Source: Aquabacterium sp. (GTDB lineage Bacteria; Pseudomonadota; Gammaproteobacteria; Burkholderiales; Burkholderiaceae_C). From it: a stretch of 36,058 nt of DNA. The stretch is from the NCBI RefSeq assembly GCF_021768455.1, contig NZ_JAIZVX010000022.1, positions 1 to 36,058 of the forward strand. Reading direction: 5' to 3'. Below, piece by piece: positions 6,901 to 35,480 of the stretch (position 1 is the stretch's first letter; every line of letters starts with the position of its first letter). The notes under the pieces are model-generated. The model was not told the origin of the DNA, made no database searches, and saw only the letters and a list, made by a program, of their open reading frames with translations. A program made the position numbers and the translations under genes.

Positions 6901-7287
6901 TCAGGCGACATTTTTGGCCTTGTAGTCGTTGACGGCGGCTTTGATCGCATCTTCGGCCAGGATCGAGCAATGGATCTTGACCGGGGGCAAGGCCAGCTCT
7001 TCGGCGATCTGGGTGTTCTTGATCTCCAGGGCCTCGTCCAGGGTCTTGCCGCGCACCCACTCGGTCACGAGCGAGCTCGATGCGATGGCCGAGCCACAGC
7101 CATAGGTCTTGAAGCGCGCGTCTTCGATGACGCCGGTGCTCGGGTTGACCTTGATCTGCAGTTTCATGACGTCGCCGCAGGCCGGCGCGCCAACCATGCC
7201 GGTGCCCACGGACTCGTCGCCCTTGTCAAATCCGCCGACGTTGCGGGGGTTCTCGTAGTGGTCGATGACTTTGTCGCTGTATGCCAT
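6901..7287 (-). CDS. iscU: Fe-S cluster scaffold protein IscU
   Basis: This 128-residue scaffold is where [2Fe-2S] clusters are built from IscS-derived sulfur. The cluster ligands are visible: C37 ([11 protein letters not shown], with D39, whose mutation stabilises clusters in homologues), C64 ([12 protein letters not shown]) and C107 (VKIHCSIL). The HscA recognition motif LPPVK is intact at about residues 100-104. The N-terminus [18 protein letters not shown] is diagnostic. It starts 15 bases after iscS and is followed by iscA. Confidence 0.97.
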
Positions 7288-7302
7288 GGTGAGACTCCAA
7301 AT

Positions 7303-8523
7303 TCAGTGTGCAGCCCATTGGATGGTGCTGATGTCGATGCCGTCCTTGTACATGTCCCACAGAGGGGACAGTTCGCGCAGCTTGGCCACGCGGTCTTGCA
7401 AGGTGGTGACGACGAAATCGATTTCCTCTTCCGTCGTGAAACGGCCGATGGTCATGCGCAGGGAGCTGTGGGCCAGCTCGTCGGAACGACCCAGGGCACG
7501 CAGCACGTAGCTGGGCTCCAGGCTGGCCGAGGTGCAGGCAGAGCCGGAGGACACGGCAATGCCCTTGATGCCCATGATCAGCGACTCGCCTTCGACGTAG
7601 TTGAAGGAGACGTTGAGGTTGTGGGGCACGCGGCGCTCGAGGTCGCCGTTGACGAAGATCTGCTCGATGCCCTGCAGGCCGGTCAGCAGGCGCTGGCGCA
7701 GGGCCAGGATGCGTGCGTTCTCCGAAACCATCTCTTCCTTGGCGATGCGGAAGGCCTCGCCCATGCCGACGATCTGGTGCGTGGGCAGGGTGCCGGAGCG
7801 CATGCCGCGCTCGTGGCCGCCACCGTGCATCTGCGCTTCGATGCGGATGCGGGGCTTGCGGCGCACGTACAAGGCGCCGATGCCCTTGGGGCCGTAGGTC
7901 TTGTGCGAGGCCAGGCTCATCAGGTCGACCGGCAGGGTGGCGAGGTCGATCTCGACCTTGCCGGTGGCCTGTGCGGCGTCGACGTGGAAGATGATGCCCT
8001 TCTCGCGGCACAGGGCGCCGATGGTGGCGATGTCCTGGATGACGCCGATCTCGTTGTTCACGAACATGACCGAGATCAGGATGGTGTCAGGGCGGATGGC
8101 CGCCTTGAGCACATCGAGGTCGAGCAGGCCGTCTTCCTTGACGTCGAGGTAGGTGGCTTCAAAGCCTTGGCGCTCGAGTTCACGCACGGTGTCGAGCACG
8201 GCCTTGTGCTCGGTCTTGACCGTGATGATGTGCTTGCCGCGCGACTGGTAGAAATGGGCTGCGCCCTTGAGGGCCAGGTTGTTGGACTCGGTGGCACCCG
8301 AAGTCCAGACGATCTCGCGAGGGTCGGCACCGATGAGTTCGGCGACCTGCACACGGGCCTTCTCGACGGCTTCTTCAGCGGCCCAGCCGTAGGCGTGGGT
8401 GCGCGAAGCGGGGTTGCCGAAGTTTTCGCGCAACCACGGGATCATGGCGTCGACGACACGGGGGTCCACCGGGTTGGTGGCGCCGTAGTCCATGTAGATG
8501 GGGAAGTGCGGGGTCATGTCCAT
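7303..8523 (-). CDS. iscS: Cysteine desulfurase IscS
   Basis: A 406-residue PLP-dependent group I cysteine desulfurase that converts L-cysteine to alanine and passes persulfide sulfur to IscU and to tRNA thiolation enzymes. The N-terminal [17 protein letters not shown] is family-typical. [15 protein letters not shown] carries the PLP-stacking region, and K208 ([12 protein letters not shown]) is the Schiff-base lysine. C330 in the mobile loop ([17 protein letters not shown]) is the persulfide cysteine. Length matches E. coli IscS. The ATG at 8523 is used here; an ATG two codons on is equally possible and neither has a clear ribosome site. A 155-base structured gap separates it from iscR. Confidence 0.96.
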
Positions 8524-8599
8524 GATGGGGACTCAAACAATGCTGGCGCTGACCAACGGCTCGGGAGGATGCCCTGCCCGTCTCAGCGGCTGGCTCAGA

Positions 8600-8616
8600 G
8601 CTGCGCCGGGCGCAGC
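8600..8616 (-). other. Perfect hairpin in the iscR-iscS intergenic region
   Basis: GCTGCGC (8600-8606) and GCGCAGC (8610-8616) form a perfect 7-bp stem with a CGG-type 3-base loop. No T-run follows, so it is not a terminator. A GATAAT at 8629-8634 on the minus strand could be a weak internal -10, but no good -35 accompanies it. The hairpin would fall in the mRNA between iscR and iscS, where structure could protect one part of the transcript. Confidence 0.5.
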
Positions 8617-8678
8617 GGGAAACCCGGGATTATCGCGCTTGCCGGAACCCGGGCACTTGCCTGGGCCCGACAAGACCT

Positions 8679-9215
8679 TTACTTGGTCAGGGCTGCGCCC
8701 AGAGCGAAAACCGAGTTCGGGGCGGTGACCTTGATCGGCTTGACCACGGGCTGGGTGGAGATGGCGCGCTTGACCGGCTGCGCCTCGATGGAGACGCCCT
8801 TGGCAAGCTGGTCTTCCACCAGCTTGCGCAGAGAGATGGAATCGAGGTATTCGATCATCTTGTTGTTGAGCGCCGTCCAGAGGTCGTGCGTCATGCAGCG
8901 GCCGCCGTCGTCGCCACCCATGCAGTTCTCTTTGCCGCCGCAGCCGGTGGCATCGATGGGCTCATCGACCGCCACGATGATGTCGGCCACGGTGATGTCT
9001 TCCGCCTTGCGGCCCAGCGAGTAACCGCCGCCCGGGCCACGGGTGCTTTCCACCAGTTCGTGGCGGCGCAGCTTGCCGAAGAGCTGCTCGAGGTAGGACA
9101 GCGAAATCTGCTGGCGCTGGCTGATCGCTGCCAGGGCGACCGGACCGGTGTGCTCACGCAGGGCCAGGTCGATCATCGCGGTGACCGCAAAACGGCCTTT
9201 GGTCGTCAAACGCAT
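8679..9215 (-). CDS. iscR: Fe-S cluster-sensing regulator IscR (Rrf2 family)
   Basis: This 178-residue Rrf2-family regulator binds a [2Fe-2S] cluster and, in that form, represses its own operon, so that ISC synthesis follows demand. The winged helix is at residues 1-65 (MRLTTKGRFAVTAMIDLA, then SLSYLEQLFGKLRRHELV). The cluster ligands appear as C92, C98 and C107 with H110 (GCGGKENC then RCMTHDLW). The last interval is 3 residues longer than in E. coli IscR (C92, C98, C104). The tail after ~130 is longer and Val/Pro rich, as in many Burkholderiales. The AAGGAG ribosome site is strong. Upstream lies the promoter at 9336-9364, overlapping a probable IscR site. Confidence 0.96.
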   Translation of the reverse strand: MRLTTKGRFAVTAMIDLALREHTGPVALAAISQRQQISLSYLEQLFGKLRRHELVESTRGPGGGYSLGRKAEDITVADIIVAVDEPIDATGCGGKENCMGGDDGGRCMTHDLWTALNNKMIEYLDSISLRKLVEDQLAKGVSIEAQPVKRAISTQPVVKPIKVTAPNSVFALGAALTK

Positions 9216-9335
9216 GGCTAACTCCTTGGTCAGGAACTCGAAAAGGCGCCCGCAGCCGCCTGGGGTTTACCAGTATCAGACCCCTGCGGGATCTCCGCGG
9301 AATCCGGCTCACCCTAATCCCGAGTGAATGACTCA

Positions 9336-9364
9336 ATTATAGGGAAGCCCACTGATTTGGTCAA
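9336..9364 (-). promoter_or_regulatory. isc operon promoter overlapping an IscR-type operator
   Basis: On the minus strand TTGACC (9359-9364), a 17-base spacer and TATAAT (9336-9341) form a near-perfect sigma70 promoter. Predicted initiation near 9329 gives a leader of about 114 bases. The segment GTTGACCAAATCAGTGGG resembles a type 1 IscR site, which in enterobacteria overlaps the -35 region of the isc promoter in the same way. The promoter call rests on sequence; the operator is inferred from similarity and position. Confidence 0.75.
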
Positions 9365-9470
9365 CTTCAGATCAGGGAGTTCCCTGAGTTCCTGACGATG
9401 AGGGCGATAGCCTCCATCAATCAAAAAGCGGGCCAGCACAGGCGCGCCCTGTGAGCCGATCAAACCTGAG

Positions 9471-9989
9471 TCAGCGCGTGGGGTTTGTTCCGACAGACAC
9501 GACAACTTGTCGCAAATGCCCCATCAGGCCCTCGCAAGCGGCTTCGACCAGGTCAAGCACGGCGTCGAAGCCGGCAGGGCCACCGTAGTAGGGGTCGGGC
9601 ACGGTCTGCGCACCGGCATGGGGGGAGTCGGCGGGCAGGAACTCGGTCAGGCGGCGAAGTTTGCGGCGCAGGGCAGGATCGTCGGGACAGGCGTCTTCGA
9701 GCAGGGCGTGGTTGTCCCAGTCCATCGCGAGGATGAGATCGAAGCGCTGGAAGTCGTCCTCCGCAACCTTGCGGGCGCGCAGGTGACCGAGGTCATAGCC
9801 GCGCTGGGCGGCGTGCTTCTGGGTGCGGGGGTCGGGAGGGCTGCCCACGTGGTAGGCGTGGGTGCCGGCCGAATCGACCTGCACCCAGGCGTCGAGTCCG
9901 GTTTGCCGCAGCTTGTGCTGCAGCACGCCTTCGGCCGTGGGACTGCGGCAGATGTTGCCCATGCAGACCATGAGGACCTTGTAGGTCAT
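9471..9989 (-). CDS. Low-molecular-weight protein tyrosine phosphatase
   Basis: A 172-residue cytoplasmic LMW-PTP that hydrolyses phosphotyrosine through a cysteinyl-phosphate intermediate. The P-loop is at the N-terminus: C9 to R15-S16 in VCMGNICRSPTAEGV. The general-acid loop is VPDPYYGG near the C-terminal third. The core ends in the usual helix (FDAVLDLVEAACEGLMGHL), and the tail after it is short. I chose the ATG at 9989 because GGAGAG lies 7 bases upstream; upstream in-frame ATGs would add ~39 residues with no family match. It lies upstream of iscR on the same strand, an association I recall from other Burkholderiales. Its substrate is unknown; homologues act in exopolysaccharide control or arsenate chemistry, and nothing here favours either. 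Confidence 0.9.
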   Translation of the reverse strand: MTYKVLMVCMGNICRSPTAEGVLQHKLRQTGLDAWVQVDSAGTHAYHVGSPPDPRTQKHAAQRGYDLGHLRARKVAEDDFQRFDLILAMDWDNHALLEDACPDDPALRRKLRRLTEFLPADSPHAGAQTVPDPYYGGPAGFDAVLDLVEAACEGLMGHLRQVVVSVGTNPTR

Positions 9990-10189
9990 GGGATTGCTCT
10001 CCGTTGGCGGCGTCGCATCGCTCTCATGAAGCTTGCCTGCGCCGCGCAGGCGTTTCAACCAGTTCATCGGGTTCATGACAGGGTCAGTGAGGGCGCAGGC
10101 TATCACGTGCCCCGCTCACCCGTCGTTTTTGACCAAAACCTATACCGTCTCTCGCAAACCAGGGAAATTCCTGAGGCTTGCGTGCAATT

Positions 10190-25474: not shown

Positions 25475-25508
25475 GCGTCACAGGGTCGTCACACAGGATC
25501 CCTATCGT
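25475..25508 (+). promoter_or_regulatory. Pho box and -10 element upstream of phoX
   Basis: GCGTCAC (25475-25481) and TCGTCAC (25486-25492) are two PhoB half-sites whose GTCA cores are exactly 11 bases apart. Ten bases further on lies TATCGT (25503-25508), a 4/6 match to the -10 and at the distance expected for a PhoB-activated promoter lacking a -35. The leader to the ATG at 25581 is about 65 bases. The target is a phosphatase, which strengthens the call. Confidence 0.6.
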
Positions 25509-25580: not shown

Positions 25581-27551
25581 ATGTCCCAACACCCCTCGTC
25601 CAGCCGCCGCCAGGCCCTCAAGTTCTTCTCCACCATCCCCATGCTGCCCCTGGGCGCCGGCGCGGCGTCCACGCTGCTCTCCGGCTGCGGCGGTGGTGGC
25701 GACAGCGCCACGCCCACCACGGCGGGCGGCAGCACCACGGCCACCTTCGTGTCGGCGGCGTTCACCAGCACCCCCGCCCCCACGGCGACCGCAGACCGCG
25801 CCACCACCTACACCACCTCGCAGATGGTCGTCACCCTGAGTGACCACAGCACCCGCAGCTACAACCTGGCCTACGAGCCCTATTTCCTGACTGGCACCAC
25901 CGTGTCCGACGGCCAGGGCGGCACCATCGTGGCCGGCGGCTACTACGACATCCAAAACCAGCCCATCATGGACACCACGGGCAGCACGGCCCGCCAGTTC
26001 TTCAGCGATTCGCCCGACGGCACCTCGCTGCTGACCGTGGCCAACGCCAGCGTGAGCGGCGTGACCGGCAACGCCGTGTTTGCCGTGGTGCAGTTCGAAT
26101 ACACCACCTACGCCCAGGATGGCAGCACCAGCATGTACGGCAAGCTGCCCTCGCCCATCGCCGTGCTCACCCTCGACCAGAACCCCAGCACGGGCAAGCT
26201 CACGCTGGTGAAATACCACAACGTCGACACCTCGGGCGTCAACGGGCTGTGGATCACCTGCGGCGCCAGCCTCTCGCCCTGGGGCACGCACCTCTCCAGC
26301 GAAGAGTACGAACCCGACGCCTGGAACCTGCCCAGCTACTGGAGCGCCTTCCAGACCAACCTGGGCTCCACCAGTGTCTCGCCCTACCACTACGGCCACC
26401 TGCCGGAGGTGACCGTCAAGGCCGACGGCACCGCCACCATCAAAAAGCACCACTGCCTGGGCCGCATCTCGCACGAACTGGTGCAGGTCATGCCCGACAA
26501 CCGCACCGTGCTGATGGGCGACGACGCCACCAACGGCGCCCTCTTCCTCTTCGTGGCCGACAAGGAAAAAGACCTCTCCGCCGGCACCCTCTACGTGGGC
26601 CAGTTGCAGGACACCTTCGACACAGCCTTCCTGGCCGGCACCAACACCGTCAGCTGGAAGTGGATCAAGCTCGGCTCGGCCACCAGCGCCGAGATCAAGG
26701 TCTACATCGACCTGCTGGCCAACGGCACGCTGAGCAAGTCCGACATCATGGACGTGAAGACCTCCGACCCGTCGGACAGCACCTACACCAAGATCAGCAT
26801 CGGCGGCGCCAAGAACTGGATCAAGGTCGTCTCGGGCATGGAGAAGGCCGCCGCCTTCCTGGAAACCCACCGCTATGCGGCCCTGATGGGCGGCAGCATG
26901 GGCTTCACCAAGCTGGAGGGCACCACGGTCAACATCGCCGACAAGGTGGCCTACTCGGCCCTGCAGAACATGGAGACCTCCATGGTCAGCGGCGCCACCG
27001 CCTGGGACAGCGCCAGCAAGATCGCCCTGACCTCGGCCCTCAAGGCCGGTGGCGTCATGGCGCACACCCTGGGCAGCGGCCAGATCGACACCAGCGGCAA
27101 CGCGATCGACAGCGCCTGGATCCCCTCGGTCACGAAGATGCTGCTGACCGGCGAAGACATCAGCGCCGACAGCCTGGGCAACACCGCCAACCCGGCCACG
27201 GTCGCCAACCCGGACAACCTGAAGTTCTCGGAAAAGCTGCGCACCCTCTTCATTGGCGAAGACAGCGGCCAGCACACCAACAACTTCCTGTGGGCCTACA
27301 ACGTCGACACCAAGCAGCTCTCGCGCATCCTGTCCATCCCGGCGGGCGGTGAATCGACCGGCTTGCACGCCGTCGACGAGATCAATGGCTGGACCTACAT
27401 CTCGAGCAACTTCCAGCACGCTGGCGACAGCAGCTACGTGCGCGGCAACACCGAACTCAACGCCGCGGTGAACGCGAACTACAACAACAAGTTCAGCGCC
27501 GCCGTCGGTTACCTGACCGGCACCGCCACGAGCCTGAAACTGAGCGCCTGA
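25581..27551 (+). CDS. phoX: PhoX-family alkaline phosphatase (DUF839), Tat-exported
   Basis: A 656-residue PhoX-type phosphatase. PhoX enzymes are Ca/Fe-dependent monomeric phosphatases released or anchored outside the inner membrane to scavenge phosphate. The N-terminus carries a Tat motif (SRRQALKFF) followed by a hydrophobic stretch and a lipobox-like LLSGC before a Gly/Ser/Thr linker, suggesting a Tat-exported lipoprotein. Family motifs are visible: TCGASLSPWGTHLSSEEYE near 230, HHCLGRISHELVQVM near 290, VLMGDDATNGALFLFVADK near 310, and LFIGEDSGQHTNNFLWAYNV near 560. I chose the ATG at 25581 because the Tat motif follows directly. The Pho box upstream supports phosphate-starvation control. 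It lies between uvrB and the aminotransferase. Confidence 0.85.
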   Translation: MSQHPSSSRRQALKFFSTIPMLPLGAGAASTLLSGCGGGGDSATPTTAGGSTTATFVSAAFTSTPAPTATADRATTYTTSQMVVTLSDHSTRSYNLAYEPYFLTGTTVSDGQGGTIVAGGYYDIQNQPIMDTTGSTARQFFSDSPDGTSLLTVANASVSGVTGNAVFAVVQFEYTTYAQDGSTSMYGKLPSPIAVLTLDQNPSTGKLTLVKYHNVDTSGVNGLWITCGASLSPWGTHLSSEEYEPDAWNLPSYWSAFQTNLGSTSVSPYHYGHLPEVTVKADGTATIKKHHCLGRISHELVQVMPDNRTVLMGDDATNGALFLFVADKEKDLSAGTLYVGQLQDTFDTAFLAGTNTVSWKWIKLGSATSAEIKVYIDLLANGTLSKSDIMDVKTSDPSDSTYTKISIGGAKNWIKVVSGMEKAAAFLETHRYAALMGGSMGFTKLEGTTVNIADKVAYSALQNMETSMVSGATAWDSASKIALTSALKAGGVMAHTLGSGQIDTSGNAIDSAWIPSVTKMLLTGEDISADSLGNTANPATVANPDNLKFSEKLRTLFIGEDSGQHTNNFLWAYNVDTKQLSRILSIPAGGESTGLHAVDEINGWTYISSNFQHAGDSSYVRGNTELNAAVNANYNNKFSAAVGYLTGTATSLKLSA

Positions 27552-27767: not shown

Positions 27768-28967
27768 ATGGCCTCGCTGTTTGCTTCCGTTGAACTCGCC
27801 CCCCGCGACCCCATCCTGGGCCTCAACGAACAATTCAATGCCGACACCAACCCCGCCAAAGTGAACCTGGGCGTGGGCGTGTACACCGACGACCAAGGCA
27901 AGCTGCCGCTGCTGAAGTGCGTCGCCGCCGCTGAAAAGCAGCTGGCCGAAACCCTCAAGCCCCGCGGCTACCTGCCCATCGATGGCATCGTGGCTTACGA
28001 CAAGGCCGTGCAAGGCCTGGTCTTCGGTGCCGAGCACCCCGCCGTCAAGGGCGGTCGCATCGCCACGGCCCAGGCCATCGGCGGCACGGGCGGCCTGAAG
28101 CTGGGCGCCGACTTCCTCAAGCGCCTGAACCCTGCGGCCAAGGTCCTGATCTCGGACCCGAGCTGGGAAAACCACCGCGCCCTGTTCGAATCGGCCGGCT
28201 TTGAAGTGGGCACCTACCCCTACTACGACGCCGCCAACCGCGGCATCAACTTCGCCGGTCTGATCGAAACCCTGAAGGCTGCCGCCGCCGGCACCATCAT
28301 CCTGCTGCACGCCTGCTGCCACAACCCGACCGGCTACGACCTGTCGGACGCCCAGTGGGAAGAAGTCATCGCCGTGATCAAGGCCGGCAACCTCGTGCCG
28401 TTCCTCGACATGGCTTACCAGGGCTTTGGCAACGGCATCGCCGAAGACGGTCAGGTCGTCCTGAAGTTCCTGGAATCGGGCCTGAGCTTCTTCGTCTCCA
28501 CCTCGTTCTCCAAGAGCTTCTCGCTGTATGGCGAACGCGTGGGCGCCCTGAGCATCGTCAGCGAAAGCGCCGAAGAGTCGAACCGCGTGCTGAGCCAGCT
28601 CAAGCGTGTGATCCGCACCAACTACTCCAACCCGCCCACGCACGGCGCCCAGGTGGTGGCCACGGTGCTGACCAGCCCCGAGCTGCGCAAGATGTGGGAA
28701 GACGAGCTGGCCGAAATGCGCGACCGCATCAAGCTGATGCGCACCGCCCTGGTCAACGAGCTGACCGCCGCCGGCGTGCCGGGCGACCTGAGCTACATCA
28801 CCCGCCAGAAGGGCATGTTCAGCTACTCCGGCCTGAACGCCGCCCAGATGCAGCGCCTGCGTGCCGAGTTCGGCATCTACGGTGTGGACTCGGGCCGCAT
28901 CTGCGTGGCCGCGCTCAACAGCGGCAACATCAAGGCCGTGTCGGCCGCGATCAAGGCCGTGATGTAA
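27768..28967 (+). CDS. Aspartate/aromatic amino acid aminotransferase
   Basis: A 399-residue fold-type I PLP aminotransferase of the AspC/TyrB group, interconverting aspartate or aromatic amino acids with their 2-oxo acids. The family start is LFASVELAPRDPILGLNEQF, then VNLGVGVYTDDQGKLPLL. Substrate- and PLP-binding segments include SDPSWENHRALFESAGF and LLHACCHNPTGYDLSD. The Schiff-base lysine lies in STSFSKSFSLYGERVGAL; the C-terminal Arg that binds the substrate carboxylate lies in YGVDSGRICVAALN. AspC and TyrB specificities cannot be separated from sequence. A possible -10 TAAAAT is at 27652, without a good -35. A strong terminator follows. Confidence 0.93.
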   Translation: MASLFASVELAPRDPILGLNEQFNADTNPAKVNLGVGVYTDDQGKLPLLKCVAAAEKQLAETLKPRGYLPIDGIVAYDKAVQGLVFGAEHPAVKGGRIATAQAIGGTGGLKLGADFLKRLNPAAKVLISDPSWENHRALFESAGFEVGTYPYYDAANRGINFAGLIETLKAAAAGTIILLHACCHNPTGYDLSDAQWEEVIAVIKAGNLVPFLDMAYQGFGNGIAEDGQVVLKFLESGLSFFVSTSFSKSFSLYGERVGALSIVSESAEESNRVLSQLKRVIRTNYSNPPTHGAQVVATVLTSPELRKMWEDELAEMRDRIKLMRTALVNELTAAGVPGDLSYITRQKGMFSYSGLNAAQMQRLRAEFGIYGVDSGRICVAALNSGNIKAVSAAIKAVM

Positions 28968-28991
28968 GCACAACGTCAACGCGCACCCGGG

Positions 28992-29017
28992 AAAGGGGCC
29001 CTGCGGGGCCCCTTTTT
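28992..29017 (+). terminator. Intrinsic terminator of the aminotransferase gene
   Basis: AAAGGGGCCC (28992-29001) pairs with GGGCCCCTTT (29006-29015) around a TGCG loop and continues into T residues, giving five in a row. It lies 25 bases after the stop codon and separates this gene from the convergent gene at 29028. Confidence 0.9.
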
Positions 29018-29027
29018 CATGGCTCGC

Positions 29028-29798
29028 TCAATCGTGCTCGTGGGGCTGGCGCCAGCCGGCCAGCACGTCCATGTGACTGGCCTTGCGGATCACGGGGTTG
29101 TTTTCCATGTCGCCAAAATCGGCGGCGTCGTAGCGCTGGTAGGCCTCGGTTCCGCGCGCCGGCACCGGCCAGCTGGCAGGCGGCAGCGCATGCCGAGCCT
29201 GCAGGGTGAAGCGCACGCTGCGGCCCTGCTCCTGGCGCAGCACGCGCTGGGCCACGCCCGCCTCGTCCAGCCAGTCCACCTCGATCTGTTCGTGGCCCAT
29301 GCGGCCTTTGTAGCGGGTCACGCCCGCCTTCGCATCCCGCCCCACACGCTGCAGCTGCGGCAGCTTGCGGGCGTCGAACAGGGTGGCCAGGCTGTCCCAT
29401 TGCGGGTAGACGTTCAAGGTCTTGAGCTCGCCGGTGGAGTAGGCCACCACACTGCGGTCGGCATGGAACACGCGCTCGAAACCGATGTGTCCCTGGGCGC
29501 TGCGCGTCCAGATGTCTTCCAGCTCGGGGCGCTGCACCACGGCGCGCTCGCCGTCGCGCAGGAGGTACCAGGTCTGCACCTTGCTCACCTTGCCGGCCTG
29601 CCACCGCACGCTGTAAGACAGGGCCTGGGGCCGCTCGGCCTGCAGAGGCGCCGCGGCCTCGGGCGCCACGTCGGACGCGGCCTCAGGGGTCTGCACGGGG
29701 GTGGGGGCCGAGGTCTGCGCCCACGTGGGGCCGATGAGCGCGAGCCCGCAGGCCAGGGTCAGCGCCAGGGGGCGAACCGAACAGGTGAACCGCTTCAT
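29028..29798 (-). CDS. Secreted hypothetical protein downstream of phoA
   Basis: I do not recognise the family of this 256-residue protein. It starts with a clear signal peptide (MKRFTCSVRPLALTLACGLALIG..., cleavage near WAQ). A Pro/Ala/Thr linker of about 35 residues follows (to about 55), then a predicted beta-rich domain (YSVRWQAGKVSKVQTWYLL, ERVFHADRSVVAYSTGELKT, VTRYKGRMGHEQIEVDWLD) and a His-rich end (WRQPHEHD). This architecture suggests a periplasmic or outer-membrane-associated beta protein; metal binding by the tail is only a guess. I chose the ATG at 29798 because an upstream GTG in frame lies inside a terminator hairpin. It follows phoA on the same strand, but two terminators lie between. 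Confidence 0.65.
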   Translation of the reverse strand: MKRFTCSVRPLALTLACGLALIGPTWAQTSAPTPVQTPEAASDVAPEAAAPLQAERPQALSYSVRWQAGKVSKVQTWYLLRDGERAVVQRPELEDIWTRSAQGHIGFERVFHADRSVVAYSTGELKTLNVYPQWDSLATLFDARKLPQLQRVGRDAKAGVTRYKGRMGHEQIEVDWLDEAGVAQRVLRQEQGRSVRFTLQARHALPPASWPVPARGTEAYQRYDAADFGDMENNPVIRKASHMDVLAGWRQPHEHD

Positions 29799-29818
29799 GT
29801 TCAGGCTTTCTCTGTTTG

Positions 29819-29852
29819 AAAAAGCCTTCGCCACCCCGAGGGCAGCGAAGGC
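29819..29852 (-). terminator. Intrinsic terminator, second of a tandem pair after phoA
   Basis: On the minus strand GCCTTCGC (29845-29852) pairs perfectly with GCGAAGGC (29824-29831) and is followed by five T (29819-29823). It lies only about 20 bases ahead of the ATG of the next gene. Confidence 0.8.
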
Positions 29853-29875
29853 AAAAGCCCGCCACGGGGCAGGCT
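29853..29875 (-). terminator. Intrinsic terminator, first of a tandem pair after phoA
   Basis: On the minus strand AGCCTGCC (29868-29875) pairs with GGCGGGCT (29856-29863), one T-G pair, loop CCGT, followed by TTT. It lies about 35 bases after the phoA stop and directly ahead of the second hairpin. Confidence 0.65.
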
Positions 29876-29908
29876 CTGGCGTGTGGGCCTGCAGGCCCTC
29901 ACTCTTGC

Positions 29909-31474
29909 TCAGAAACCGAATGCTTCCTTCATCACGTGGAAGATCCAGTTCTGTTCCATGCTGCCGCGCACCAGGTAAGCCTTGGGGCCACGGGCCCAGA
30001 CGCCCACGTCTTCACCGGCGTGGGTTTCCGAGCTGCTCAGCGGAATGGCCGCCTGCTGCAGGAAGCCCAGGGCCGTGGTGTCGACGCTGCTCAGGTCAGG
30101 GCGCACGCCGGAGGCGATCTGCGAGGCCGTCACACCAGGGCCGTTCATGTAGCCCAGGGTGGTGTAGGGCTTGCCGTCATCGGCCAACGAGGGCGAGACC
30201 GAGGTCCCGTCCACATTGGGCACAGGCTTGACCAGGCCCAGGATGTCGTTGCCGCGGTGCGGGTAGCCCGCCACCGTGAAGGTGTGGCTGTGGTCGGCCG
30301 AGACGATGATCAGGGTGTCGGCATCGCTGGTCAGCTCCATGGCCTTGCGCACGGCGTTCGACAGCTCGATGGTGTCGAGCAGTGCGCGCTTGGCATTGCC
30401 GGCGTGGTGGCCGTGGTCGATGCGACCGGCCTCGACGTGCAGGAAGAAACCATTGGGACTCTTTTGCAGCAGCTTGATCGACTTCTCGGTCATCTCGGTC
30501 AGCGAGGGCTCACCGGCGGTGTCGGCCTTGCGGTCGGCTTCGTACTGCATGTGCGAAGGCTCGAAGAGGCCCAGCACCGGGCCGCTGGTGGCCGGGTCGA
30601 TGGCATCGAAGCCGGCGCGGTTCCACACATAACGGGCATCGCCACCTCGGGTCGAGACCCACTCGGCGGTCAGGTTGCGACCATCGTTGCGGCGGCCGAC
30701 CGTGCCACTGTATTCCGGGTCCTTGAGGGTCTTGGGCAGGAAGTAGGTGCGGCCACCGCCCATCGCCACCTTCAGGCTGTTGCGCACGGTGGGCGACACC
30801 TCGATCAGCTGGCGTGCGATGTCCTTCACCGGGTTGGCGTAGTTGGCGCAGGTGCTGCCGATTTCCTTGTCCGACTCCCAGTCACGCACGGCGGTGTGGG
30901 CGTAGGTGGCGGCCGGGGTGGCGTGGGTCAGGCGGGCGGTCGACACCACGCCCGTGGCCTTGCCGTAAGCGGCGGCCAGCTCCAGCATGGTCGGCAGGGA
31001 CTTGGTGGCGATCACATTGCCGTCGCACTCGAAGCGGGCCGTGGTGTGGTTGACCGACAGCATGCTTTCACGGGTCTTGTAGCCCGTGATCATGGCCGTC
31101 ATGGTGGGCGCCGAATCGGAAGTCTGCTGGTCCCAGGAGTACGTCTTGGAGAGGGCGCTGTAAGGCAGGGTCTCGAACGAGAGGCGGTTTTCTTCGCCGG
31201 TCTTGCCGTTCAGTTGACCTTCGAGGATGCGCGCGGCGGTCTGGGTCGAGATACCCATGCCATCGCCCACAAAGAAGATCACGTTCTTGGCGCGGCGCAC
31301 ATTGGGCACCAGGCGCTTGCCCTCGGCAATGAACTGGTTGCCGGCGTTGTACCAGTCCTGCACGGCCTCCGGGCCCTTGACGACGGGGGCCACGGTGGTC
31401 GCGGCCTGGGCGGGCGACAGCGCCAGCCACAGGCTGCTCAGGGCAGCGGCGGCGGTGAGGGAGAGTTTGAACAT
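29909..31474 (-). CDS. phoA: Alkaline phosphatase PhoA
   Basis: A 521-residue periplasmic or secreted alkaline phosphatase that releases phosphate from monoesters using two Zn and one Mg. The signal peptide is MFKLSLTAAAALSSLWLALS..AQA. Metal-site Asp lies in FFVGDGMGIST; the nucleophilic Ser is in TSDSAPTMTAM. Further ligands are in EAGRIDHGHHAGN (E, D, H), SADHSHTF (D, H) and SETHAGEDVGVWA (H). All E. coli PhoA ligands have counterparts; the protein is about 50 residues longer, mostly in mid-protein loops. I chose the ATG at 31474, with GAGGAG upstream. It follows the PEP-CTERM gene after 56 bases, so a shared Pho-controlled transcript is likely. Tandem terminators follow. Confidence 0.94.
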   Translation of the reverse strand: MFKLSLTAAAALSSLWLALSPAQAATTVAPVVKGPEAVQDWYNAGNQFIAEGKRLVPNVRRAKNVIFFVGDGMGISTQTAARILEGQLNGKTGEENRLSFETLPYSALSKTYSWDQQTSDSAPTMTAMITGYKTRESMLSVNHTTARFECDGNVIATKSLPTMLELAAAYGKATGVVSTARLTHATPAATYAHTAVRDWESDKEIGSTCANYANPVKDIARQLIEVSPTVRNSLKVAMGGGRTYFLPKTLKDPEYSGTVGRRNDGRNLTAEWVSTRGGDARYVWNRAGFDAIDPATSGPVLGLFEPSHMQYEADRKADTAGEPSLTEMTEKSIKLLQKSPNGFFLHVEAGRIDHGHHAGNAKRALLDTIELSNAVRKAMELTSDADTLIIVSADHSHTFTVAGYPHRGNDILGLVKPVPNVDGTSVSPSLADDGKPYTTLGYMNGPGVTASQIASGVRPDLSSVDTTALGFLQQAAIPLSSSETHAGEDVGVWARGPKAYLVRGSMEQNWIFHVMKEAFGF

Positions 31475-31530
31475 GGGGACTCCTCGAATCGGTCTCGGTG
31501 GACCGTCAGACACGGTGTAAAGGGATGGGC

Positions 31531-32268
31531 TCAACGACGGCGGGCGCGCAGAGTGCCCGCGACGCCCAGGCCCGCCAGGATCAAGGCCAGGCTCTGCGGC
31601 TCCGGCACGGTCGACACCTGCAGGGCGACGTTGTCGACCCCCACCTGCAGCGAACCCAGGGTGTTGGCCGCGGCGATGCGCAGGGTATAGGTCTGCCCCG
31701 CCAGCAGGCCGGTGTTCGACCAGCTGGCTTCGTAGTGCGTGTACGCACTGGGAGTGGCCAGCAGCGATGGCGACAGCGCCAGGCTGTAGAGCACATCGGT
31801 CGCGTCGGTGCTGAAGGCGGAGGCGCCGGCCTTGAGGATGTCGACGCGCACCTGCACGTTCTCGGCGTCGGTCGACAGGCCGAGCGCGGCCGACGAGAAG
31901 CTCGTTTCGGCGCCGACGTAATGGACGAAAAGGTCCAGCGACAGGGTGGCACTGGCCGCGTCTTGCGCGCCCAGGGTGAAGGACTGGCTCAAGGCCGCAC
32001 GCGACGGCGCGATCAGGTCGATCAGGCCGTAGTAGTGCCCCGAGGCGGCGCCGGCGGTGGCTTCGCCGCTCACGGGGGAGACCGTGCCCGACTCGACGAG
32101 CACACCGCCGAAGATGCCTTCTTCGCTGGCCGACCAGCTCGCGATCGCATCGGGGGACTGCACCGTCTGTCCATCGGCTTCAAAGCCGCTGTTGCCCAGC
32201 ACCTGGGCGGCCTGAGCCTGGGCCATCAGGCCGAGGGCCAGCGCGCTGGCAATCACGGGAAACTTCAT
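31531..32268 (-). CDS. PEP-CTERM sorting domain-containing surface protein
   Basis: A 245-residue secreted protein with an N-terminal signal peptide (MKFPVIASALALGLMAQAQA) and a C-terminal PEP-CTERM tripartite signal: VPEP near residue 220, a hydrophobic helix (SLALILAGLGVAGTL) and a basic RARRR end. Exosortase recognises this tail and processes or attaches the protein, usually in species that make exopolysaccharide. The middle looks like a beta-sandwich carbohydrate-binding domain, starting GNSGFEADGQTV and containing HYYGLIDLIAPSRAALSQSF; I do not name a specific family. No exosortase is in the window. It lies ahead of phoA on the same strand, with a candidate Pho box upstream. Confidence 0.88.
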   Translation of the reverse strand: MKFPVIASALALGLMAQAQAAQVLGNSGFEADGQTVQSPDAIASWSASEEGIFGGVLVESGTVSPVSGEATAGAASGHYYGLIDLIAPSRAALSQSFTLGAQDAASATLSLDLFVHYVGAETSFSSAALGLSTDAENVQVRVDILKAGASAFSTDATDVLYSLALSPSLLATPSAYTHYEASWSNTGLLAGQTYTLRIAAANTLGSLQVGVDNVALQVSTVPEPQSLALILAGLGVAGTLRARRR

Positions 32269-32298
32269 GTCCTGGCTCCGTCTTGGGGTGGTGACGAC

Positions 32299-32315
32299 AC
32301 GTGAATCGTTCACGT
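32299..32315 (-). promoter_or_regulatory. Perfect inverted repeat in the PEP-CTERM gene leader
   Basis: ACGTGAA-TCG-TTCACGT is a perfect 7-base inverted repeat with a 3-base centre, starting about 30 bases before the ATG at 32268. It looks like a dimeric regulator operator, or a small hairpin near the ribosome site; no regulator can be named. Confidence 0.4.
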
Positions 32316-32338
32316 TTCGCTCATCCTGACGGCGCTTC

Positions 32339-32356
32339 ATGACACGCCCATGAAGC
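32339..32356 (-). promoter_or_regulatory. Candidate Pho box ahead of the PEP-CTERM/phoA genes
   Basis: On the minus strand, GCTTCATGGGCGTGTCAT has two half-sites (GCTTCAT and GTGTCAT) exactly 11 bases apart. The second matches CTGTCAT at 6/7 and the first at 4/7. Ten bases downstream, CAGGAT is only a weak -10. The site lies in the 115-base gap between the oxidase stop and the PEP-CTERM start. Its position ahead of a phosphatase gene supports it. Confidence 0.45.
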
Positions 32357-32383
32357 CCGGGCCCGCGCCCGGCCCGAAGCAGG

Positions 32384-33925
32384 TCAGCCCAGCTTGATCA
32401 CCTTCGCCACCGAAGGCACACCGGCACTGTTGAACACGAACAGCAGGTAGTAGCCCGGCGGCGCCACGTTGGCGCTGGCCGGCAGGGTCACGCTCAGGCT
32501 GCTGCCGCTGGCGGTGTAGCTCAGGGGCACGTAGCGCTGGTCGAAGTCGACCGTGTGTGTGACCGAGCCCGTTTTCACCAGCGAGACCTTGCTCACCCCG
32601 GTCACATTGGTGTCGACCTGGATGCGCTGCGCCCAGGTGCCGGTGGTAGGCGCCGAGGTGATCTCTGGCCGCACGGCCAGAGTGCCACTCGTGTCCTGCT
32701 TGTAGAGGTAGGGCGGCGTGTAGACCTCGGCGTTCAGGTTGGTTTGCGGCCCCGGGGCGCCGCCCCCGCCCGTCAGCACGCGGCCATCGGGCAGCAGCAT
32801 GCTCACAGAGTGGTACAGGCGCATCTGCCTGGCGGTGGCCGCGGTGCGCCAGGCCCGTGTATCGGGGTTCCAGATCTTGCCGGTGTAGGCCACACCCCAG
32901 GCCACGTTGGAGACAAACGAGCCGCCGTTCACATAGACCTGCCCGTCGGCCATGACCGTGGCCGAGCCATGGAAGCGGTCCTGGCCGACCCCGGTCACGC
33001 GGGCGGCCGTGGGGGTGGTACCCGTGAGGTCGATGACGGTGGCCGTGTTGTTCTTGCGGAAAGACAGGATCTTCCCCGGGCGATACATGACACTGGTCAG
33101 GTAGGCATCGCCGGCGGCCAGGGTCAGCGGGGTCTTGGTCAGCTGGCCGGTGCCAGCGGGATCGAGGAAATAGGTGCCGCCAGCGGTGGTGGCAATGAAG
33201 ACCTTGCCATGGGGCGCCACCCAGGCGCGCGGGTAACTCCAGTTCTGCGTGCCATAGGCGGCGTCGCTCACGGCAGAACCCAGGGTGCGCCAGCCTGCAC
33301 CTTCTGTGTAGACCTCGGGCGTTGCCACAGGCGTGTTCGGGTCGGCCCGGCCGCCCAGCACCAGCACCTCGCCCTGCGCCGTGGTCAGCACGGTGGGGTA
33401 CCAGCGCAAAAAGGCCATGGGCTGCTGAGCCGAGTACAAGGTGGTGCGCTGCCAGTCGAAGAGGTTGACGTCATTGACCGAGTAATTTCGCGTGCCGTTG
33501 ACGGTCTTGTCGCCCCCGGTGAGCAGCACCGCACCGCTGGCCGGCAGCACAAGCTGACCACTGCAGAAGGTGTCGGTGCCAGTGGTGTTGGGCAGGGTCA
33601 GGTGGGCGTCAGGGCCAGTGCCCTTGCGCGGGTCCCAAACGTCGTAGATGAACTGGCCGGTCTGGTTGCCGGCGCCGTCGCTGCCATAGCTGAGCACCCG
33701 CCCGTCGGGCAACTGCACCATGTGGATGGGGATCAGCGGCCAGCTCACCACGGGGCCAAAGCTGCCCTGCAGGTAGGCGTTGCTGGCCGCCTGGGCAGCC
33801 GTGGCCAGCGCCAGTGCCCCCCAGGCCCCGCACAGCGTGCGCAGGCGACAGCGAAGACGCAGGCGAAAACGCCTGCAAAGTGAGGCCCTGGCATGGGGCT
33901 GATCGGCTTGATGTCGCTTGTTCAT
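32384..33925 (-). CDS. Copper-radical oxidase (galactose/glyoxal oxidase-like)
   Basis: A 513-residue secreted enzyme resembling galactose oxidase and glyoxal oxidase, which use a Tyr-Cys crosslink and Cu to oxidise alcohols or aldehydes and make H2O2. All five active-site positions have counterparts: C121 (TDTFCSGQLVL), Y176 (RWYPTVLTT) for the crosslink, Y371-H372 (RLYHSVSMLLPDG) and H457 (SVTHTVDFDQR). The body is a seven-bladed Kelch-type propeller, followed by a DUF1929 beta domain. It lacks the N-terminal carbohydrate-binding domain of fungal galactose oxidase. The N-terminus has a long Arg-rich n-region before the hydrophobic signal (ALALATAAQA). The ATG at 33925 is set by GGGAGG 8 bases upstream. 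Substrate unknown. Confidence 0.85.
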   Translation of the reverse strand: MNKRHQADQPHARASLCRRFRLRLRCRLRTLCGAWGALALATAAQAASNAYLQGSFGPVVSWPLIPIHMVQLPDGRVLSYGSDGAGNQTGQFIYDVWDPRKGTGPDAHLTLPNTTGTDTFCSGQLVLPASGAVLLTGGDKTVNGTRNYSVNDVNLFDWQRTTLYSAQQPMAFLRWYPTVLTTAQGEVLVLGGRADPNTPVATPEVYTEGAGWRTLGSAVSDAAYGTQNWSYPRAWVAPHGKVFIATTAGGTYFLDPAGTGQLTKTPLTLAAGDAYLTSVMYRPGKILSFRKNNTATVIDLTGTTPTAARVTGVGQDRFHGSATVMADGQVYVNGGSFVSNVAWGVAYTGKIWNPDTRAWRTAATARQMRLYHSVSMLLPDGRVLTGGGGAPGPQTNLNAEVYTPPYLYKQDTSGTLAVRPEITSAPTTGTWAQRIQVDTNVTGVSKVSLVKTGSVTHTVDFDQRYVPLSYTASGSSLSVTLPASANVAPPGYYLLFVFNSAGVPSVAKVIKLG

Positions 33926-34220
33926 GGTGTGACCTCCCTGTGGCATCGCAGGCCGATCCTAGCCAGAACAGGGGCGCGCTGACGAGGCCAGACGGGGCGC
34001 CATCCCGCACAAAATGCAGGCCACCCCCCTCAACAAGGGGACGGGTCACAGCCGACCTGACCCACAAATGCACGGTTTCAGGGGCCTACTTGATCGGGAT
34101 GGCGGGTCACCCCCGATGCCATCATTCAGGAAGTAAACTATGCTGCACTGCACCAAATACTGAAACCGCCGGTATTCAGTTGCGGCCAAGCGCCGCCTCC
34201 CCCCGCTTTGAGGACCCGCC
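33926..34220. promoter_or_regulatory. Divergent regulatory region between the oxidase gene and phaZ
   Basis: This 295-base region has no gene. It holds GGGTCA-N9-TGACCC as an inverted repeat (34043-34063) and a third GGGTCA at 34104-34109. It also has GCACCAAATACT at 34150-34161, which matches the PhaR motif GCAMMAAWTMMD, as I recall it from Ralstonia eutropha, at 12/12. A weaker copy, GCACAAAATGCA (34007-34018), matches at 11/12. I see no clear -35/-10 pair for either gene. Confidence 0.4.
34150..34161 (+). promoter_or_regulatory. Candidate PhaR operator upstream of phaZ
   Basis: GCACCAAATACT follows TATGCTGCACT and lies 60 bases before the phaZ ATG. It fits the PhaR consensus as recalled from Ralstonia eutropha phasin promoters. 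PhaR represses PHA-associated genes when free of granules. The consensus is degenerate, but the site sits before a PHA gene. Confidence 0.45.
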
Positions 34221-35480
34221 ATGCTCTATCAGATCTACGAAACCAACCGCGCCTGGATCAGCCCGTTCTCGGAGTTCGCCAGCGCCGCCTCCAAGCTGTA
34301 CAGCAACCCGCTGTCGCCCATGGCGCAACTGCCGGCGGCCCAGCGCGTGTCGGCCGGCTTCGATCTGATCCACCGCCTGACCAAGGAGTATGAAAAGCCC
34401 GAGTTCGGCATCAACAAGGTCAACGTGGGCGGCACGGAGGTGGTGATCCAGGAGCAGGTGGTCGAGGCCAAGGCCTTCTGCAAGCTCATCCGCTTCAAGC
34501 GTTTCACCGACGACGCCAAGCTGCTCGACAAGATGCGCGACCAGCCCTCGGTGCTGGTGGTGGCGCCCCTGTCCGGCCACCACTCCACCCTGCTGCGCGA
34601 CACCGTGCGCACCCTGCTGCAGGACCACAAGGTCTACATCACCGACTGGATCGACGCCCGCATGGTGCCCATGGAAGCAGGCGCCTTCCACCTCGACGAC
34701 TACGTCAACTACGTGCAGGACTTCATCCGCAAGGTCGGCCCGGATGTGCACGTGATCTCGGTCTGCCAGCCCACGGTGCCGGTGCTGGCCGCCGTCTCGC
34801 TGATGGCCAGCCGCGGCGAGGCCACGCCCCGCACGATGACCATGATGGGCGGCCCCATCGATGCGCGCAAATCGCCCACGGCCGTGAACAACCTGGCCAT
34901 GAACAAGTCGTTCGAATGGTTCGAGAACAACGTGATCTACCGCGTGCCGCACAACTACCCCGGCTCCAGCCGCCGCGTCTACCCGGGCTTTTTGCAGCAC
35001 ACCGGCTTCGTGGCCATGAACCCCGACCGCCACGCCACCTCGCACTACGACTACTTCCTCGACCTGGTGCGTGGTGACGACGACAGCGCCGAAGCCCACC
35101 GCGAGTTCTACGACGAGTACAACGCCGTGCTCGACATGCCGGCCGAGTACTACCTCGACACCATCAAGACCGTCTTCCAGGATTTCGCCCTCGTCAACGG
35201 CACATGGATGGTGCGCAACCCCAAGGGCCAGGAAGAGCTGGTGCGCCCGCAGGACATCACCACCACCGCGCTGCTGACGGTGGAAGGCGAGCTGGACGAC
35301 ATCTCCGGCGCCGGCCAGACCCGCGCCGCCCACGACCTGTGCACCGGCATTCCCAAGGAGCGCCAGAAGCACTACGACGTGATCGGCGCCGGCCACTACG
35401 GCATCTTTGCCGGCCGCCGCTGGCGCGAAAAGGCCTACCCGGAGATCCGCGCCTTCATCCTGGCGCACAACAAGAAGTGA
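34221..35480 (+). CDS. phaZ: Intracellular polyhydroxyalkanoate depolymerase
   Basis: A 419-residue PhaZ1-type depolymerase that hydrolyses intracellular PHB granules to release 3-hydroxybutyrate. It has no signal peptide and starts with the family segment MLYQIYETNRAWISPF. The nucleophile is a Cys, C182 (HVISVCQPTVPVLA), in place of the lipase-box Ser; R. eutropha PhaZa1 uses Cys183. The catalytic Asp lies in TVEGELDDISGAGQ and the His in VIGAGHYGIFAGRRW. Length matches the family. GAGG is 7 bases ahead of the ATG at 34221. It is divergent from the copper oxidase gene, and a PhaR-like site precedes it. Confidence 0.95.
   Translation: MLYQIYETNRAWISPFSEFASAASKLYSNPLSPMAQLPAAQRVSAGFDLIHRLTKEYEKPEFGINKVNVGGTEVVIQEQVVEAKAFCKLIRFKRFTDDAKLLDKMRDQPSVLVVAPLSGHHSTLLRDTVRTLLQDHKVYITDWIDARMVPMEAGAFHLDDYVNYVQDFIRKVGPDVHVISVCQPTVPVLAAVSLMASRGEATPRTMTMMGGPIDARKSPTAVNNLAMNKSFEWFENNVIYRVPHNYPGSSRRVYPGFLQHTGFVAMNPDRHATSHYDYFLDLVRGDDDSAEAHREFYDEYNAVLDMPAEYYLDTIKTVFQDFALVNGTWMVRNPKGQEELVRPQDITTTALLTVEGELDDISGAGQTRAAHDLCTGIPKERQKHYDVIGAGHYGIFAGRRWREKAYPEIRAFILAHNKK

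Follow-up and report, generated by a model that had tools for sequence, protein, structure and literature searches.

In Escherichia coli, the Pho-controlled phoA operon encodes a secreted alkaline phosphatase and, downstream of it, the secreted protein PsiF. To our knowledge, most PEP-CTERM proteins are without assigned roles. Here we describe a locus of Aquabacterium sp. in which a PEP-CTERM protein gene, an alkaline phosphatase gene and a gene for a third secreted protein, named P1 here, follow one another within a window of 36,058 nucleotides (the whole stretch analyzed, positions 1 to 36,058 of contig NZ_JAIZVX010000022.1, assembly GCF_021768455.1). Its nearest functional parallel appears to be ElpS of Caulobacter crescentus, a surface lipoprotein that is produced when phosphate is scarce and is associated with increased activity of extracellular alkaline phosphatase (PMC2996285). 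According to that paper, elpS adjoins type II secretion system genes and Caulobacter has no phoA homologue. PepA, a PEP-CTERM protein of Aquincola flocs, depends on RpoN and is linked to floc formation (PMC9850573).

The likeness of P1 to ElpS is drawn from the description of the two proteins: P1 is also a probable envelope protein and maybe a lipoprotein in methanotrophs, whereas its gene adjoins the phosphatase gene and not, as described for elpS, type II secretion genes. The PEP-CTERM protein of the window has the C-terminal motif and signal peptide of the PEP-CTERM/exosortase system, and exosortase is encoded in the genome. Unlike the RpoN-dependent pepA, its gene stands first in a phosphatase operon, is preceded by a Pho-like box and is without a strong sigma-54-like site. 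As in the E. coli phoA operon, a secreted alkaline phosphatase is encoded with a secreted protein downstream, whereas the phosphatase here is of the animal type and P1, with 256 amino acids, has a predicted LolA-like fold; PsiF is likened to it from general knowledge only. A search of the open-access literature, in which most matches were judged by title or the start of the abstract, found no description of this gene set, nor is it described in the available parts of PMC2907700, PMC3333781, PMC9850573, PMC3684757 and PMC2996285.

We tentatively interpret the locus as a phosphate-acquisition operon with a core formed by the phosphatase and a dedicated partner, P1, and with a PEP-CTERM gene placed in front in some lineages, a reading to which we give somewhat less than an even chance. 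The parts on which it rests are as follows.

31531-32268, minus strand: PEP-CTERM protein gene, 245 amino acids, with signal peptide, jelly-roll domain and VPEPQSLALILAGLGVAGTLRARRR tail
29909-31474, minus strand: alkaline phosphatase gene, 521 amino acids, assigned to the animal-type branch of PF00245
29028-29798, minus strand: P1 gene, 256 amino acids
32337-32356, minus strand: Pho-box-like site GCTTCATGGGCGTGTCATGA, 88 bases 5' of the PEP-CTERM start codon
29824-29852, minus strand: terminator-like hairpin of 13 pairs with the tail TTTTTC, between phosphatase and P1

All three genes lie on the minus strand where a first-pass annotation of this DNA had placed them, with the 56 bases it gave between PEP-CTERM and phosphatase genes; a further 110 bases separate phosphatase and P1. 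Its third gene is indeed secreted and 3' of the phosphatase, but does not simply come next, as the 13-pair hairpin with TTTTT intervenes.

The phosphatase matched Pfam PF00245 over its full length (420 bits, residues 62-518 of 521). Its closest solved structures were the intestinal, tissue-nonspecific and placental enzymes (372-384 bits), while structure entries of E. coli PhoA reached up to about 120 bits, and it scored 161.3 bits against the E. coli-type PhoA equivalog NF007810, for which the cut-off is 540. These comparisons assign it to the animal-type branch of the family. Within the genus the gene is patchy: matches with E<1e-100 were found in three of 25 genus genomes (the source genome G000, G007 and G013) and in G025 of another family, and a separate survey added one more genus genome, G057.

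Some phosphatases in the data set showed peculiarities of their own. Tandem pairs of more distant members of the family were present in two genomes (L005 and L015 in G031; L006 and L016 in G028), and a contig labelled Klebsiella pneumoniae (L073) carried a divergent copy. The phosphatases of a 'Chloroflexi' assembly (L029) and a Betaproteobacteria assembly (L030) were nearly identical, with end branches of 0 and 0.003, and the 'Chloroflexi' assembly may therefore be a binning error.

Scanning named genomes yielded 379 relatives of the phosphatase, the best 80 of which were kept for locus counts. P1 was located just 3' of the phosphatase in 65 of the 78 loci whose sequence continued for 800 bases or more beyond it; the other two could not be judged. 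These 65 loci span Burkholderiales, Rhodocyclaceae, Methylophilaceae, methanotrophs and two Nitrospina assemblies. A chance neighbourhood of P1 and the phosphatase was rejected on this count. The class survey, in which at most seven first-look candidates were scored per genome, gave 17 P1 matches in 16 of 369 genomes, 13 of them adjacent to a phosphatase; three of the other four were cut by contig ends and one was a partial C-terminal match (L142). P1 was detected in four of 42 genus genomes, each time beside the phosphatase. The two proteins also co-diverge, since pairwise identities over ten trio loci correlated with a rho of 0.87 and none of 2000 permutations was as high. The phosphatase-P1 pair is the conserved and widespread core of the arrangement. 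The trio had been proposed as a possible surface unit, and the neighbourhood does recur, but what is conserved in it is this pair rather than all three genes.

The window protein in front of the pair scored above the cut-offs of the Pfam PEP-CTERM model (28.6 bits against 20.7) and of TIGR02595 (19.1 against 16), and its Pfam HpiC1-like match (18.6 bits) was under the cut-off of 27. Its AlphaFold model, with a mean predicted local distance difference test score (pLDDT) of 78.5, matched HpiC1-type cyclases and carbohydrate-binding modules, so that the probable carbohydrate-binding fold suggested in the first-pass annotation is a fair description; no credible relative came up among solved structures in a profile search. 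The source genome carries 21 PEP-CTERM genes and two exosortase genes, both above the cut-off of TIGR02602 (148.9 and 131.9 bits). The exosortase genes are both on contig C112 (10250-15535), in opposite orientations and with about 4 kb between them.

Absence of a conserved neighbourhood in relatives had been named beforehand as one of two findings that would together speak against the proposal, the other being a PEP-CTERM gene indifferent to phosphate, and such an absence was not observed. Homologues of the window PEP-CTERM protein, with 38-48% identity, were found directly 5' of the phosphatase in nine of the 80 named loci besides the window, among others in Roseateles (the cultured R. oligotrophus, L020, has the trio), two Methylotenera assemblies and one Rhodocyclaceae assembly. 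The order survey (399 genomes, ten-row profile, at most six candidates scored per genome) gave nine full-length matches, eight of which, including the window, were directly upstream of a phosphatase. Three of these eight appear to be named loci counted before (L041, L047 and L062), which leaves four new ones; the ninth match (G437) had a lower score of 158 bits and no phosphatase in the flanking sequence examined. Among the 369 genomes of the class survey the window's copy was the only full-length one. By motif, 19 PEP-CTERM open reading frames were detected in the 80 loci and the window, using a model partly trained on the counted proteins (10 of its 31 sequences). Fifteen of them lay in the 2 kb that precede the phosphatase, including two short ones (73 and 63 amino acids) and with related loci not being independent, and ten of the fifteen were adjacent to it on the same strand; the remaining four were spread over about 1057 kb of other flank. 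On a quick phosphatase tree of 82 sequences (Shimodaira-Hasegawa-like approximate likelihood ratio test support only) the trio label needed seven changes, all forced by starred branches, and as few as seven were reached in four of 500 shuffles. The PEP-CTERM gene as a chance neighbour was rejected on the eight of nine order matches and the 15 of 19 reading frames upstream of the phosphatase.

A second enzyme in the genus shows the same link. In the three sister species G013, G057 and G007 a full PhoX gene diverges from the phosphatase-P1 pair and has a PEP-CTERM gene of another family behind it. As in the window, a galactose-oxidase-like gene and phaZ are located beside the locus, and tyrB borders it at the opposite end in G013 and G057, for which enough sequence is present. 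An example from G013 is given here.

L236, about 7100-9990: PhoX gene with PEP-CTERM gene in G013

Across the genus, a PEP-CTERM gene was found 3' of PhoX on the same strand in 22 of 23 PhoX genes scoring over 500 bits (L240-L262), the sequence of the 23rd locus (L258) ending too early to judge, and the gap was 23-72 bases where both ends could be placed. The PhoX-associated PEP-CTERM proteins form one family by alignment, with a median pairwise identity of 37%. The PEP-CTERM/phosphatase link thereby recurs with a second enzyme in the genus; no paper on PEP-CTERM proteins together with PhoX, or with phosphate limitation, was found in the open-access collection searched. Two loci (L254 and L256) have PEP-CTERM genes on both sides of PhoX, and duplication is suggested there because the tails of the flanking genes are nearly identical.

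Several results on gene content, together with those on Pho sites given below, weigh against the operon as we interpret it. P1 was missing in 13 of the 78 named loci. No PEP-CTERM homologue was found before 71 of the 80 named phosphatase genes, some of which had little upstream sequence, and one of the nine trio relatives (L047) has an out-of-frame PEP-CTERM tail. The identities of the PEP-CTERM proteins do not track those of the phosphatases (rho 0.0; 868 of 2000 permutations were as high), and the trio as a tightly co-inherited unit was rejected on this absence of co-divergence. Of the 30 top-scoring PhoX loci in a set of 300 order genomes, a single one was flanked within 1.5 kb by a PEP-CTERM gene, encoded on the other strand, and the PhoX pairing was accordingly rejected as an order-wide feature. 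The PEP-CTERM gene is a patchy but recurrent add-on, a mobile or dispensable layer on the core. Loss, exchange or repeated recruitment of the gene could each explain why it is not strictly inherited with the phosphatase.

These observations are also what gives room to an explanation by shared regulation only, which we regard as tenable though short of probable. The PEP-CTERM matrix protein would then remodel or thicken the exopolysaccharide during phosphate starvation and never meet the phosphatase, and its place in the operon would be a matter of timing. Patchiness and lack of co-divergence are in agreement with it, and different PEP-CTERM families beside different phosphatases would fit a general starvation-time matrix response. 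However, the PEP-CTERM family of the trio is nearly confined to this one position (eight of nine matches in 399 genomes), a narrower placement than a general matrix protein would require. Under the operon reading, the PEP-CTERM product, with its jelly roll of glycan-binding type, would reach the exopolysaccharide layer through sorting by exosortase. Made under phosphate starvation, it may keep the enzyme or its substrate near the surface. Matrix display of the phosphatase by this protein is an attractive and plausible hypothesis. Through the repeated phosphatase link, one subset of PEP-CTERM proteins gains a physiological setting open to test, namely the capture of phosphate in flocs and biofilms; this would matter for the phosphorus cycle of fresh water and wastewater.

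P1 had been described as a protein of no known family, and it has no Pfam or NCBIfam match at E<=1. None of 50 members of its family matched either collection at E<=0.01, LolA family models included, and solved structures searched with a P1 profile gave no credible relative either. The predicted model (mean pLDDT 87.5, 50-row alignment) had LolA-type proteins as its top Foldseek matches, with 4mxt at E 3e-7 and a query template modelling score of 0.42, hence a partial match. VIA-align gave Z scores of 11.1 to the ependymin-related protein 8i34, 10.3 to 4mxt and about 9 to LolA. From these models P1 appears to have a LolA-like half-barrel fold, as do LolA, LolB, RseB and ependymin-related proteins. 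Unlike that group, with an identity of about 10% to its structural matches and no Pfam match, P1 has an extra acidic and His-containing C-terminus and is genetically tied to one phosphatase family.

Residues W134, D227 and G229 were invariant in the 50 family members, and D224, D230, H253 and H255 were kept in at least 90% of them. The 65 P1 members had a median of three His in the last 14 residues; five had none, of which three were cut by contig ends, one was split and L068 was a true exception. A simple pattern detected a lipobox-like start in seven of the 65, six of them from methanotrophs. P1 would on these grounds be a LolA-fold envelope protein with an Asp-rich, His-ended C-terminus and, in several methanotrophs, a lipoprotein-like start. 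We infer that P1 is an envelope protein handling the phosphatase, which it might escort or mature in the envelope.

The main alternative for P1, in our view unlikely, is a metal-loading factor. Phosphatases of the alkaline phosphatase superfamily require zinc and magnesium, and the Asp motif and His tail of P1 would pass one of these metals to the enzyme, the LolA fold being a mere scaffold. Such a role would be in agreement with the retention of the six Asp, Gly and His positions D224 to H255 and with the His content of the C-terminus. Against it, the His tail is absent from at least one intact member (L068), and the LolA fold family is better known for lipid and lipoprotein binding. P1 represents a widespread and uncurated family, the function of which can be tested directly thanks to its tight association with a single phosphatase clade. 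If either escort or metal loading is true, P1 would be a dedicated helper for the bacterial relatives of animal alkaline phosphatases.

The hairpin between phosphatase and P1 has the longest stem of six terminator-like sites detected in 28900-34250, where 2.7 were expected. The gap, folded as 114 nucleotides, gave -60.5 kcal/mol with a z of -4.89 against shuffles. The hairpin survey covered 63 loci with a placeable P1 start (the window and 62 of the 65 named loci, with starts set by an ad hoc signal-peptide rule), and a terminator-like hairpin was present in 25 of 43 gaps of at least 60 bases, window included, compared with 10 of 860 shuffled gaps. We take the hairpin for a leaky terminator, behind which less P1 than enzyme would be made. 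It might instead serve to stabilize the RNA, or end transcription completely, P1 then having a promoter of its own.

A candidate Pho box before the PEP-CTERM gene was likewise found, its end at 32356 being the outer limit of the region given in the first-pass annotation, and it is better than chance. A simple 7-4-7 consensus scan was uninformative for many phosphatase loci, and a matrix trained on 30 pstS promoters from the genus, with 25 distinct sites and training scores of 19.9-32.7, was used instead; the best 7-4-7 sites in these promoters agreed at 10-13 of 14 positions, 67-94 bases before the start codon. The window site scored 7.9, rank 4 among 72,078 window positions, and this score was reached in none of 200 mononucleotide shuffles of the 250-base-pair region upstream of the PEP-CTERM gene. 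In the 56-base gap before the phosphatase no Pho box was found (best score -17.1), for which reason, should the phosphatase be under Pho control, the candidate site is the one ahead of the PEP-CTERM gene. The source genome encodes PhoB about 3.6 kb from pstS. The best site of the whole window precedes a second phosphatase gene.

25475-25494, plus strand: strongest Pho-box-like site in the window, GCGTCACAGGGTCGTCACAC, matrix score 18.3, rank 1 of 72,078
25581-27551, plus strand: PhoX-like phosphatase, a divergent member with the start MSQHPSSSRRQALKFF resembling a twin-arginine translocation signal; PF05787 64.7 bits, cut-off 24

Pho control of the operon is a plausible hypothesis, and the following results speak on the other side. 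The window site scored under all 30 pstS training sites. Among the nine trio relatives, the best sites had p values of 0.045 and 0.04 in two and at least 0.065 in seven. No Pho site was found in the phoX-phoA interval of the three sister species, and only two of 23 genus PhoX-PEP operons had a site at p<=0.01.

It is quite unlikely, in our judgement, that the box is fortuitous, that another regulator drives the operon and that the trio arose by simple insertion beside an existing gene. The low score relative to the training sites, the poor conservation among trio relatives and a search of 28900-34250 in which no sigma-70-like promoter was found all fit such a case. In contrast, the site ranks fourth at a canonical distance while rank 1 precedes the PhoX-like gene, and 17 of 69 phosphatase-first loci had a site at p<=0.01 (100 shuffles each). 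Elsewhere in the genome, the 20 remaining PEP-CTERM genes are without a comparable site, with a best matrix score of 2.6 in up to 1500 bases before the motif. No strong sigma-54-like site was found, the best match before the window PEP-CTERM gene being 6 of 12 positions and before its nine relatives 8 of 12. A sigma-54 scan of the genome's 21 PEP-CTERM upstream regions, in which the starts of L190, L192, L196, L202 and L203 were misplaced, gave one clear site (L189, 11 of 12).

A full display system, in which P1 as escort would deliver the animal-type phosphatase across or onto the outer membrane and the exosortase-sorted glycan-binding protein of the same operon would fix it in the exopolysaccharide, the same logic having arisen again in the genus with PhoX and another PEP-CTERM family, is in our judgement likewise quite unlikely.

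Some further features surround the trio. No Rfam match at gathering scores was found in 28000-34250, and no direct repeats in 31400-32450. The PhoX-like gene adds another gene for phosphate acquisition to the vicinity of the trio; it is separated from the end of P1 by about 1.5 kb that include an aminotransferase gene. On the other side, one more gene adjoins the trio.

32387-33925, minus strand: galactose-oxidase/glyoxal-oxidase-like gene, PF09118 87.9 bits, immediately 5' of the trio and in the same orientation

Relatives of its product with 76-77% identity are encoded in the same place in the three sister species.

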